Assembly (NCBI GenBank): GCA_021827865.1
Contig: JAKAUC010000009.1
Coordinates: 558,001 to 622,000 of the forward strand
Direction: 5' to 3'
Origin: an archaeon
Lineage (GTDB): Archaea > Thermoproteota > Nitrososphaeria > Nitrososphaerales > Gagatemarchaeaceae
DNA length: 64,000 nt
A program made the position numbers and the translations under genes. Position 1 is the stretch's first letter. Every line of letters starts with the position of its first letter. Shown here piece by piece: positions 25,317 to 29,186 of the stretch. Below the pieces are notes generated by a model. The model ran no database searches, had not been told where the DNA came from, and worked only from the letters and a program-made list of their open reading frames with translations.

Positions 25317-26435
25317 CTAGCGGTCTGCCTCTACGGGCCAATAGTTCAGGCCCCAGTATATCACCGGGATGTCTGCCACGTGGACCCCTTTCAGAAGGTG
25401 CGGCAAGACCCTGAGGTTCTTCGCAGAGGGCACCCCGATCTTCAGCCTGTAGGGGCGCGGCGAGCCGTCGCTGATTATGTGGTACGACATCTCTCCCCTG
25501 GCGGCCTCTGTTCGAGCGTACACTTCCCCCGCCGGGACCCTGGGCTGGGGTCCGAGCTTGAGACGCACCGGCCCCTGTGGGAGCCCCTTGAGCGCCTGCC
25601 TGATTATCTTGACCGACTCGCGCATGTCAAGCAGCGCGACGTAGGCACGGGCCCAGGAGTCCCCCTGGGTAAGCACCGGCGTCTTGAACTCGAAGTCGGA
25701 GTAGGAGCTGTAGGGCTCGTCCTTCCTCACGTCGAAAGTGAGGCCGGAGGCCCGAGCGACGGTCCCGGTGGCGCCGAAGGCGACGGCGTCGTCCCCGGTC
25801 AGGACACCCACGCGGTCTGACCTCTGGTGGACCATAGGGTTTTCGAAGAATATTTTCTCGTACTCATCCATGCGTTTCTCGAACCAGTCGCAGGTGTTGA
25901 GCCCCTTCTCTATGGCGAACTCCGGGATATCGTTCCTCACCCCTCCTGGAATGATGTAGGCGAAGGTCACCCTCGCGCCTGCTATCCTTTCGGCGAGGTC
26001 GATCCAGAAGTCCCTGTCACCCATGCACCAGGTGATCATCGTGGTGTGGCCCAGGAAGAGCCCCTGGATGGCAACGAAGTACATGTGTGAGATGATGCGG
26101 TTGATCTCGGACATTATGACCCTGAGGTACTGGGCCCGAGGGGGGACCTTGCTGCTCATGAGCTCGTCGACCGCCAGCGAGTAGGCGAAGAGTATGTTCG
26201 AGCTGTCGAGTATCACCGGCCGCTCGAGGTGCGGGACGTTCTGGGTGTAGTTCCTGTACTCCGCCATCTTCTCCTCCCCCCGGTGAACGTACCCGGGGTC
26301 GGGCAAAGCCTTGACCACGTAGTCTCCATCCAGCCAGAGCCTGATGCGGAAATGACCGGCCCCAGGATGCTGCGGGCCGAGCGAAACGGCCATGATCCTG
26401 TCGGCGTCGGGCGAGTACTCCGCTTCGAGGGTCAT
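25317..26435 (-). CDS. nuoD: NADH dehydrogenase-like complex I subunit D
   Basis: A 372-residue 49-kDa-type subunit of the complex I peripheral arm, which helps form the quinone site facing cluster N2 of NuoB. Landmarks: SLGPQHPGAGHFRI, the strand DPGYVHRGEEKMAE, YLRVIMSEINRIISHM and the C-terminal NLRVLPHLLKGVHVADIP. The first His pair is present as QHPGAGH; the second His of the usual HP(x)THG pattern is shifted (GAGH). It is the last gene of the nuoABCD unit, 4 nt after nuoC. Subunits H, I, J, K, L, M, N are not in the window. Confidence 0.92.
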   Translation of the reverse strand: MTLEAEYSPDADRIMAVSLGPQHPGAGHFRIRLWLDGDYVVKALPDPGYVHRGEEKMAEYRNYTQNVPHLERPVILDSSNILFAYSLAVDELMSSKVPPRAQYLRVIMSEINRIISHMYFVAIQGLFLGHTTMITWCMGDRDFWIDLAERIAGARVTFAYIIPGGVRNDIPEFAIEKGLNTCDWFEKRMDEYEKIFFENPMVHQRSDRVGVLTGDDAVAFGATGTVARASGLTFDVRKDEPYSSYSDFEFKTPVLTQGDSWARAYVALLDMRESVKIIRQALKGLPQGPVRLKLGPQPRVPAGEVYARTEAARGEMSYHIISDGSPRPYRLKIGVPSAKNLRVLPHLLKGVHVADIPVIYWGLNYWPVEADR

Positions 26436-26439
26436 CGGC

Positions 26440-27036
26440 TCATCTCCCCGGCGATACGTAGTCCTTGCGGAGGGGAGGGAGGTCGTTCCAGTCTTCGGGG
26501 AGGAAGAGGTGGCTCTGGTCGGGGTGCCCCTGGAAGTTTATCCCGAACATCTCGTGCGTCTCCCTCTCCTGGTACTCCGCGCCCTTCCATACCCCGATCA
26601 GGGTCGGGACTACGGGGTTGTCCCGGGGGATCCTCTCGGAAACGGCAAGGACGAAGTCCTCCTGACCGTGGGTCGTGGATCCCACGAAGTAGATCACTTC
26701 CAGCTCATTCTTCGCGATCCAGTCGACTCCGCTGACCGCGCTGATGTGATTGAATCCGAGCGAGTCCCGGGCGAAGAGGGCCACGTCCTTGATCGTGTTC
26801 GGAGAGGCGGAGACCTTCAGGCGCCGTGGCTTCATCCACTCGACCTTCGCTGTGGGTTGACTCGACGTTATCCTTGTGGCGAGGGCCTTCGCCCTGTCCA
26901 GATCCGGACTCGGCGCGGGGGCGGAAGCCGCAGCGGGGGGAGACGGGGTCGCAGGCTTAGCCGGCTGCGTGGGGGCGGAGAGCGGAGGTGAAGCTGGCTT
27001 GGCAGGCTCGCTCTCTTTGCTCATTTTGTGCTTCAC
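26440..27036 (-). CDS. nuoC: NADH dehydrogenase-like complex I subunit C
   Basis: A 198-residue 30-kDa subunit. The diagnostic [20 protein letters not shown] motif is complete and is followed by [17 protein letters not shown], the family end. The first 50 residues are a Pro/Ala/Ser-rich linker not seen in most NuoC proteins and probably disordered. The start overlaps the nuoB stop by 4 nt, so translation is coupled. It binds NuoB and NuoD in the connecting module of complex I. A shorter start at Met5 is possible. Confidence 0.92.
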
Positions 27037-28787
27037 CGGCCGCCAAGGGTCGGCATCCGTCTGATCTTCTCTTGCAAAAGCACTATCCCCTGAATCAGTG
27101 CCTCGGCCCTCGGAGGGCAGCCTGGGACGTACACGTCTACCGGTATGATGTCGTCGATGCCCCTGAGGACGTTGTAGGAGTCGAAGTAGAGTCCGCCGGT
27201 GATCGAGCAGTTGTGGACCAGCTCACCGTTGGCGAAGTAGTTGTGGTGGCCCTCCACCTCGATGTCGTAGACCTGCTCTCTTCCTCGGGGGATGATAGAG
27301 GTGACCCTCTGGAGGGCGATTCCTGGGTGATTGGTCTTGAGGAGAGATCTGCCGTCGAATGAACGGGAGCCACGCTTTGTCCGACTTTGGTAACCAGGTC
27401 TGTGCAGTGGGAGCTTCGCCACAGTTTCGGCGGGGAATGAAACTGCGTATTCTTTCGCTTCGAGGTACCTTTCTTTCAGGATATCCCCTTTCTCCTTCTC
27501 GAAGACGCCGCCGACGCGTATGCCGCGGTAGTGGCAGAGTTCGACGACGTCACGCATCAGATCGTAGTTGTCTGAGCTTAGTTGGGCGGAACCCTGCTCC
27601 TCCACGCTGCCATCGGATTCAATCAGGCCGGCGAGGAAGCCGTAGACAGAAGTCGAGGGCAGGGGGTAGACCCAACCGGGGACGCGCTTGGAACGGACAC
27701 CGCCGCGAGGGAGAAGCGACTGCTCGGACGCTCCAGAGGCCGCCTCGGGCTGAGTCTCGGCCTGGCGAGTCGCCCAGGCACCCACTGCAAACGACCCGTT
27801 CGCTCCCTGAGAGAGATGCCGCCTTGACAAGTCTTCCCCCGTTTGGGAGGAGGCTCCTCGTGGCCCCGCGCTCCAGCCGTCTCCAGGGTGGAGGCCCGCA
27901 AGCCACGCGAGATTATCGTCCGCGGACCGTGAGACTCTGACCTTGTTCCTCAGCCCTCCATCGTGTGAGCGATTGATATTGTAGGGCGTATCTATGACGG
28001 GCGCGGCGAATGTTCCCAGCAAATCGCCTTCCTTCACCTGATTGAAGCGCTTCCACACTATATCCAGCCCGAATTGGGCTGGGGGATGCCGTCTCCAATT
28101 GGAGAGAGTCTTGGCACTTTCTCCCACCAACGGAGCGATTTCTCGCAGTGTGAATCCCTCTTCGAGCAATCCGAGTACAGACTGGTAGGTGATCCACCTC
28201 CGCGAGAGCGTCCGCTCGTAAACCGCGAAGGGATGGTCCTCCGTGGCCACCAACTCATAGGCACCTGCGCGGAGCCTCCACACGTCCTTACTCCCCTGGT
28301 CCTTGTTGGCCACCACCTGGCCGGTGATCACCCTCTTGCGTTGCTCGTCGTAGGTAAGAACGAGCTCCCCGGGACCCACGCCGTCGATTCGTTTGACGCC
28401 GTTGGGTGTGTAGACCAGCGAATCGCCCCGAAGACAAGCGCCCATGGCAATGGTCCACTTCGGCTCCGCCATCTGGTCGTAGATGAGCTTCAGTCTCGGG
28501 GCCAGCTTCCTCGTCACGGTCCCCATGACTATGATGAGGTCGCAGGCGCGGAGCGAGCCGAACGCCTCCAGCGTGCCGAAGCGCTCTATGTCGAATCTCG
28601 AACCGGCGGCCGCCCCGACCTCGACTGAGCAGCAGGCCGTTTCGAGGTGCACGGGCCAGAGGGAATAGAGGCGTCCCCAGTTGGCAAGGTAGCGCAGCGG
28701 GTCTCCGATGGCGTACTGGAGTACGTCGTCTATCTTGCCTACGAGGACCTGGAAGCTCCCGGTCTTCTGTTGCTGCGCGGCTACCAA
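27033..28787 (-). CDS. nuoB: Complex I subunit B interrupted by an intein
   Basis: The 584-residue frame is NuoB (PSST subunit) split by a 409-residue intein. Exteins are residues 1-117 and 527-584, giving a mature 175-residue protein. NuoB carries [4Fe-4S] cluster N2, the last electron carrier before quinone. Its ligands are C52 and C53 (tandem pair in TACCSVEV), C527 (first residue after the intein) and C557 (VPGCPPR). The intein therefore breaks the protein directly before the third ligand. The N-extein has the normal family length and the downstream extein reads straight into [11 protein letters not shown]. It overlaps nuoA by 7 nt and nuoC by 4 nt, so splicing is needed for complex I assembly. 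Confidence 0.95.
27210..28436 (-). mobile_element. Intein with LAGLIDADG endonuclease domain in NuoB
   Basis: The intein begins [10 protein letters not shown] (C118) and ends GELVHN (H525, N526) before the extein Cys, a complete class 1 splice set. Block B is ATEDHPF (T182, H185); block F is [15 protein letters not shown] homing endonuclease is inserted: first motif [11 protein letters not shown] (residues 295-305), second [11 protein letters not shown] (384-394), both keeping the catalytic Asp. A helix-turn-helix-like segment (residues 200-233) precedes them. The stretch between the two motifs (305-370) is Ser/Gly/Ala-rich and unlike a normal LAGLIDADG fold, so the nuclease may be decayed while splicing residues stay intact. 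Parts of the DNA look less GC-rich than the exteins. Confidence 0.93.
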
Positions 28788-29152
28788 AGCTCCCTCTTCC
28801 CCGCGAGTACGAGGGCGAAACCCATGGGGATGAAGAGCATACCCATGAAGAGCGTCACTGTCCAGTCGGACGTCAGTCCAAGGGCGAGCGGCTTGTAGGC
28901 CGACGCCCAGGCATAGAGGAACATCGAAAGGACGTCGAACACTATGAACATGAGTAAGTAGGCGTAGTACTGCATCATGAAGTGCATCTTCCCGGCGCCC
29001 TGGGGGACCTGACCAGCCTCAAAGGGGAGGCTCTTGATGGGGTTGGGCCGCCTAGGCGCGAAGAGGCGCGGGAGGATTATGACCATCCCCGTGAGCCCTA
29101 CGGCGACGAGGGCCATGACGAAGATTGTCCCGATGTCCCCGAAGAGAGCCAT
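28781..29152 (-). CDS. nuoA: Complex I subunit A
   Basis: A 123-residue three-helix membrane subunit. Family landmarks: an N-terminal helix ([19 protein letters not shown]), the loop with [17 protein letters not shown], the helix [21 protein letters not shown] and a third helix. The conserved loop Glu and the intramembrane Asp in FDV are present. I prefer the ATG at 29152 because TTATTTAAG (29178-29186) lies about 28 nt upstream; a GTG at 29164 is the longer choice. First gene of the nuoABCD transcription unit. Confidence 0.9.
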
Positions 29153-29186
29153 TTCAGGGTTCACGACCTCTTTACGTTATTTAAGA

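Follow-up and report, generated by a model that had tools for sequence, protein, structure and literature searches.

Inteins at predicted Fe-S ligand cysteines of archaeal complex I: a class 1 intein directly before a presumed cluster N2 cysteine of NuoB

Complex I is central to respiration. In the window (the whole 64,000-nucleotide stretch of archaeal DNA analysed here), the frame of its subunit NuoB is interrupted by 409 residues resembling an intein, which raises the questions of whether this is a genuine intein, whether the cell depends on its removal, and whether it is a parasite or a control device. An earlier reading, made without database searches (the sequence-only reading), had placed the intein at 27210-28436 with C118, T182/H185, H525-N526 and C527, and these boundaries and residues proved exact to the base. 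The features of the locus are listed below; G, C and L numbers denote genomes, contigs and loci.

27033 to 28787, minus strand: nuoB precursor gene, 584 aa, TTG start
28437 to 28787, minus strand: NuoB N-extein, residues 1-117 (117 aa), with the predicted tandem N2 cysteines C52-C53 (28629-28634)
27210 to 28436, minus strand: NuoB-b intein, residues 118-526, 409 aa, class 1 with LAGLIDADG homing endonuclease region
28422 to 28436, minus strand: block A, intein N terminus CLRGD, nucleophile C118
28233 to 28244, minus strand: block B TEDH, T182 and H185 (TxxH)
28095 to 28163, minus strand: helix-turn-helix-like insert between block B and the endonuclease, given more broadly as intein residues about 87-117 (28086-28178)
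27876 to 27902, minus strand: first LAGLIDADG motif, LAGLHPGDG, acidic residue kept
27699 to 27869, minus strand: endonuclease middle, intein residues 190-246, diverged, in frame
27609 to 27638, minus strand: second LAGLIDADG motif (10 residues), acidic residue kept
27207 to 27272, minus strand: blocks F and G, C-terminal splicing region ending H525-N526, with +1 C527 (codon 27207-27209)
27036 to 27209, minus strand: NuoB C-extein, residues 527-584 (58 aa), with C557 (VPGCPP), predicted fourth N2 ligand
28781 to 29164, minus strand: nuoA, upstream neighbour, best matches NuoA, below their cut-offs
26440 to 27036, minus strand: nuoC, downstream neighbour, overlapping the nuoB stop codon, best matches NuoC, below their cut-offs
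25317 to 26435, minus strand: nuoD, PRK06075 403 bits (cut-off 360)

The nuoB frame scored 183.1 bits with PRK06411 (cut-off 116) and 181.5 bits with TIGR01957 (cut-off 142.7), in two stretches each, and was matched by Pfam Oxidored_q6 (2.6e-20); its start codon is not certain, since the open frame (661 aa) extends farther upstream. It was assigned to complex I on a score above the family cut-off and the presence of all four N2 cysteines. The best matches of the neighbouring nuoA, nuoC and nuoD were all Nuo or Fpo subunits, nuoD alone passing its cut-off. When the genome was searched in six frames, the two halves of NuoB were found separately with 109.6 and 76.8 bits, each below the family cut-off, a warning for annotation by DNA search. 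Using phmmer, residues 31-120 paired with residues 24-113 of Thermus thermophilus Nqo6 (2fug_6). Since these stretches are of equal length, C52, C53 and C118 correspond to Nqo6 residues 45, 46 and 111 if the pairing is ungapped. We take residues 45, 46, 111 and 140 of Nqo6 to be the N2 ligands. C527, which would occupy the place of C118 in spliced NuoB, is therefore by homology the probable third N2 ligand, in agreement with the sequence-only reading.

The interrupting segment has the N-terminal cysteine, TxxH motif, His-Asn end and +1 cysteine of a class 1 intein, and its site is empty in orthologues. Model TIGR01443 (intein_Cterm) matched residues 506-527 of the window NuoB with 32.8 bits (cut-off 15.6), and TIGR01445 (intein_Nterm) matched residues 118-188 with 21.6 bits, below its cut-off of 24.5. 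When the intein was scanned alone, Pfam LAGLIDADG_3 (23.2, cut-off 22.5; the match is the second LAGLIDADG motif) and Hom_end (21.7, cut-off 21.1) both passed, and Intein_splicing (35.5) fell narrowly below its cut-off of 35.8. The intein also matched by sequence the models PRK07773 and PRK08332 and solved inteins (Spl DnaX mini-intein, 7cfv; PI-PkoII, 2cw7). Single-sequence structure prediction of the lone intein gave a mean pLDDT of 36.5, and so its Hint fold is inferred from sequence alone. Only two cysteines, C118 and C418, lie within it. Its C-terminal block was 72-82% identical to those of four relatives. Its endonuclease middle showed 25-33% identity to four relatives, compared with 30-46% among those four, and an odd codon-position G+C, which suggests decay of the endonuclease. 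A frameshift in this region was rejected, frame 0 being best in every 12-residue step of intein residues 151-310. The helix-turn-helix-like insert stayed below the Pfam HTH_23 cut-off in all six b inteins scanned (E-values include 0.037 in the window, 4.6e-4 in G004 and 0.13 in G035), and the aligned sequence is kept in the 203-aa NuoB-b mini-intein of G035, which has lost the endonuclease.

The sequence-only reading had proposed that the same insertion be sought in NuoB of related archaea. In 46 genomes of the same archaeal family, NuoB was readable in 38, with an intein in 21 and without one in 17; G002 and G036 are represented by contig-end fragments, and G032 by two copies, of which only one contains an intein. 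Two sites were found. Site b, directly before the third N2 cysteine, was filled alone in 6 genomes; site a, between C52 and C53, where the intein splits the tandem Cys-Cys of N2, alone in 12; and both together in 3, in one frame in G034 (L118) and G035 (L119) and on two contig ends in G002. The b inteins lie at the identical codon in G000 (the bin of the window), G012, G024, G004, G033, G042, G034, G035 and the contig-end fragment of G002, and four complete ones are 50-53% identical to that of the window. In a sample of 400 genomes of the class, no match at E <= 1e-8 was found outside this family. In a sample of 398 genomes of the phylum, site b was also filled outside the class, in G511 (43%) and G461 (37%, endonuclease degenerate by eye). 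Site b is thus occupied in other genera and classes.

The distribution of the NuoB inteins was patchy. A NuoB DNA tree (501 columns, 38 rows) grouped the window NuoB and two identical copies with six relatives (100/96). These six are its nearest relatives, 94.9-97.7% identical to it in protein, and belong to the 18 of the 38 rows in which both sites are empty. The tree requires a minimum of 6 changes at site b and of 9 at site a.

Further inteins were found in NuoI of the same organism, in a double-intein locus (L240, G000:C13:637655-639301) of the same contig, some 16 kb past the right edge of the window:

C13:638786 to 639301: NuoI-c intein of the window's organism, 172-aa mini-intein, endonuclease-free
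C13:637655 to 638767: NuoI-d intein of the window's organism, 371 aa

This intein-split NuoI is situated between nuoH and nuoJ-nuoM, neighbours named by best matches that are each below cut-off; the joined NuoI extein had NuoI as its best family, at 103.6 bits (cut-off 113.05). In the second 4Fe-4S motif, site c immediately precedes the first cysteine (DYGR, then CVFC) and site d the third (CGL, then CVDACP). We take the first three cysteines of this second motif to hold cluster N6b, following the usual 8Fe-ferredoxin pattern, and N6b to be the donor to N2. NuoI was readable in 36 of the same 46 family genomes and not readable in 10; it was not found in G012, which is 62% complete. Inteins were present in 28 of the 36 and absent from 8, with c in 14 genomes, d in 8 and both in 6 (in G044 a contig end truncates the d intein). 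Inteins extracted from sites c and d keep C1, TxxH at 63-66 and the terminal Asn, d ending mostly in SN, not HN. In other families of the phylum sample (398 genomes), c was found in G541 and d in G496, G686, G707 and G731. Both genes were readable in 32 genomes; one or more inteins occur in 26 of these, and the other 6 (G010, G011, G014, G015, G018 and G031) have none. The window's organism has three complex I inteins (NuoB-b, NuoI-c and NuoI-d), and G035 has four (NuoB a and b, NuoI c and d). The account given by the sequence-only reading therefore held for NuoB-b itself and was incomplete in that relatives use a second NuoB site and the same organism carries two NuoI inteins. Intein C-terminal motifs were seen in 45 of the 46 family genomes, 1 to 12 in each, and the window's bin contains other inteins, in hosts identified by eye as an AAA (MoxR-like) ATPase, AdoMet synthetase, IF-2 and RadA (L160, L162, L163 and L164), and a further one at G000:C20:60145-61224. 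Archaeal 16S was looked for in this bin and not found.

Several states that resemble stages of a homing cycle coexist in these genomes: complete inteins, an intein with a diverged endonuclease, the mini-inteins NuoB-b of G035 (203 aa) and NuoI-c of the window's organism (172 aa), and empty sites. An intein tree of 60 rows and 20 site types, midpoint-rooted and with clades that depend on the rooting, required 19 changes of site type, the minimum. This points to a single origin of each site type, as expected of site-specific homing alleles, 9 of the 20 being single rows and as such uninformative here; the alleles thus appear to have kept their site while their hosts changed. Of the inteins of the family, six of type a, six of c and six of d were included; the tree omitted the Hel308 loci L157 and L324 (pattern not matched), L318 (contig end), L323 (host unclear), L304, L132, L138, L154, L155, other weak matches, and the identical copies of G012 and G024. 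A virus as recent donor was rejected, no close donor being found among IMG/VR loci or 50,697 phage records. Of 58 IMG/VR loci that matched the window intein, 57 did so only within residues 306-409 and one, L201, over residues 1-409 (E = 3e-5); nine of the phage records matched, the best by score with 25.7% identity across the whole intein.

These results are best explained, with a probability of about 0.86, by a class 1 homing intein, allele NuoB-b, in the single complex I nuoB of the organism, which would be spliced out and which, like its relatives, would be a parasite spread by homing. The intein would be co-translated with NuoB in this Thaumarchaeota-type archaeon; C118 would form a thioester after A117, C527 would receive the N-extein, and N526 would cyclise. 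Splicing would yield a 175-residue NuoB with C527 as the third N2 ligand, and the same cell would also remove two related inteins from NuoI at sites c and d, so that N6b and N2, the two clusters at the end of the electron wire, would depend on three splicing events. The inteins would persist as molecular parasites whose endonucleases home into highly conserved complex I codons, and at these cysteine codons they may be retained because imprecise loss would destroy respiration.

Other explanations have to be set against this one. The locus could be an artefact of assembly or binning: its bin G000 (1.94 Mb, completeness 99.24), in which the window lies on a 771,837-bp contig (C13), has a contamination of 7.47%, and a second species is the source of one of its other contigs. 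However, the locus is a single open frame and recurs with 100% DNA identity in L006 of G012 (JAJZOO010000002.1, MAS5.bin16) over 10,938 bp and in bin G024 over 4,752 bp, although the three bins may stem from common samples. Allelic inteins also occur in other genomes, including the single-contig G004. Since identical DNA was recovered in three bins and homologous inteins fill this site in further genera and classes, it is confirmed that the window intein is neither due to chance nor a lone assembly error. An artefact, including the chimeric assembly that the sequence-only reading had named as a refuting outcome, is thus barely conceivable. It had also named a second intact nuoB. Contig C9 of the bin does carry a NuoB with a different intein; this region is 99.9% identical to G006 over 19,144 bp and matches the window in nine colinear blocks of 70-85% identity, which indicates that it is a co-binned orthologue from a second species, and it was rejected as a back-up copy. 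The NuoB of C14 was rejected likewise: it is a fragment in which the final 29 residues of an a-type intein are followed by NuoB from C53 onward. The NuoB-like match on C20 is a distant homologue (30-34% identity, below cut-off). No intein-free complete complex I nuoB of the window's organism was found in a six-frame search of bin G000. In G024 (contamination 1), which also has a distant homologue like that of C20, and in G004 (single contig, completeness 100), the intein-bearing gene was the only close NuoB found. The proposal that N2 depends on splicing is consistent with this lack of an intact alternative in G000, G024 and G004. Very improbable, too, is a decayed intein that does not splice or merely cleaves, so that the locus yields no functional NuoB or two fragments. 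The diverged endonuclease middle with its odd base composition and the sub-threshold TIGR01445 match would agree with it, but the catalytic splicing residues are present, the C-terminal block is conserved, the frame is open, all four N2 cysteines and the flanking nuoA, nuoC and nuoD are intact, and the organism has no other complete complex I NuoB that we could find.

Splicing of NuoB and NuoI could also be conditional on redox state, iron or temperature, complex I being held back until N6b and N2 can form. At all four complex I sites the +1 cysteine is a predicted N6b or N2 ligand, at NuoB site a the residue preceding the intein is an N2 cysteine as well, and endonuclease-free mini-inteins persist. 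Redox-sensitive inteins are known, according to the reports on DnaBi1 of Mycobacterium smegmatis (PMC6195587) and SufB of M. tuberculosis (PMC8529194). Against such a gate, the window intein's own cysteines are limited to C118 and C418, and the patchy presence of inteins among close hosts leaves no common circuit conserved; that the closest relatives, with NuoB 95-98% identical, have no intein argues against a conserved regulatory role. Moreover, inteins generally favour conserved sites (PMC2814812), so that their placement is explicable without regulation. The coincidence is also mild: among invariant C, S or T residues, ligands account for 4 of 13 in NuoB and, within the stretch of NuoI examined, for 8 of 10, so that two sites drawn at random per gene would all fall on ligands with a chance of about 0.05. 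A regulatory gate is accordingly improbable, and the switch of respiration suggested by the sequence-only reading is so far unsupported, the absence of the intein from the closest relatives fitting a mobile parasite.

A broader proposal would combine homing with Fe-S proteins: a lineage of homing inteins in this phylum specialised on Fe-S ligand cysteines (NuoI, NuoB-a, ABCE1, OFOR beta, IscU and radical-SAM), with a separate lineage at NuoB-b, the two making assembly of N6b, N2 and several other Fe-S proteins splicing-dependent and possibly redox- or iron-gated. We consider this unlikely, and given the chance of about 0.05 noted above, specialisation is not claimed as shown. In the starred 43-row clade of the intein tree, predicted Fe-S ligands are the insertion point in 39 rows and for 8 of the 12 site types. 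This is suggestive and amounts to no test, since NuoI-c and NuoB served as queries in collecting the inteins and the root was placed at the midpoint. For relatives of the NuoI inteins, ligands were presumed from motifs and from hosts assigned by eye, the insertion points being CPG/CGDF in OFOR beta, GCGI/CVKKCP in ABCE1, GNP./CGD in IscU and CCDF/CWRP in a radical-SAM enzyme. Such relatives also occur off Fe-S ligands, in hosts identified by eye as AdoMet synthetase, a thymidylate-synthase-like enzyme, topoisomerase I, a zinc-finger-like protein, phosphomannomutase and Top6B. The NuoB-b lineage is separate on the intein tree, its nearest neighbour being an archaeal SufB intein (93/86, not starred).

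Several of these inteins were recorded individually. ABCE1 is a ribosome recycling factor; inteins in the Fe-S domain of ABCE1-like proteins lie before the third cysteine of CxxCxxCxxxCP (L305, L306, L308, L313, L314 and L329, in G447, G419, G440, G516, G433 and G461, respectively) and adjoin NuoI-d on the intein tree (83/76, weak). Inteins of IscU/NifU-type Fe-S scaffolds (L309 and L312; G430 and G535) precede the cysteine of GNPxCGD, and radical-SAM inteins precede the third cysteine of CxxxCxxC (L158 in G014; L315 and L320 in G473 and G556). In the beta subunit of 2-oxoacid:ferredoxin oxidoreductase (OFOR), inteins lie at CPG/CGDF (L302, L303, L316, L317 and L321) and at a different site, EAYMN/TGIQ (L238 and L239).

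The results confirm the intein as genuine. Its class is known; for its host protein we found no intein described, and with it the inteins in complex I of this organism number three. What is surprising is the place and the number of the complex I inteins: self-splicing elements are placed exactly at predicted metal ligands, with up to four of them on those of the last two Fe-S clusters of complex I, gained or lost repeatedly within one family. The matched pairs that nature provides, with NuoB 95-98% identical and with or without intein, offer a means to distinguish neutral parasites from conditional switches.

As the sequence-only reading had supposed for NuoB, no NuoB or NuoI intein was found in the literature, subscription papers and intein databases lying outside the scope of the search; none is mentioned in the available parts of PMC10640624, PMC10833072, PMC2814812, PMC4853749, PMC4465626, PMC3655853, PMC4104785 and PMC13405050. 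Among known systems, the window intein has blocks A, B, F and G and two LAGLIDADG motifs in common with class 1 LAGLIDADG inteins (PRK07773 DnaB, PRK08332 ribonucleotide reductase, 7cfv and 2cw7), but its host is a respiratory Fe-S subunit instead of a replication or nucleotide enzyme, and it has a helix-turn-helix-like insert before the endonuclease. SufB inteins (of M. tuberculosis, from PMC8529194, and of an archaeon, G526/L237, host by eye) likewise reside in an iron-sulfur protein; SufB, however, is a cluster-assembly scaffold with no electron-transfer role, and the +1 residue is serine in L237. DnaBi1 of M. smegmatis belongs to a protein with two inteins, like NuoB of G034 and G035. Unlike NuoB-b, it uses a class 3 mechanism with an internal cysteine, and the effect of redox state on its splicing is reported as demonstrated in PMC6195587, whereas for NuoB-b such an effect is only possible.
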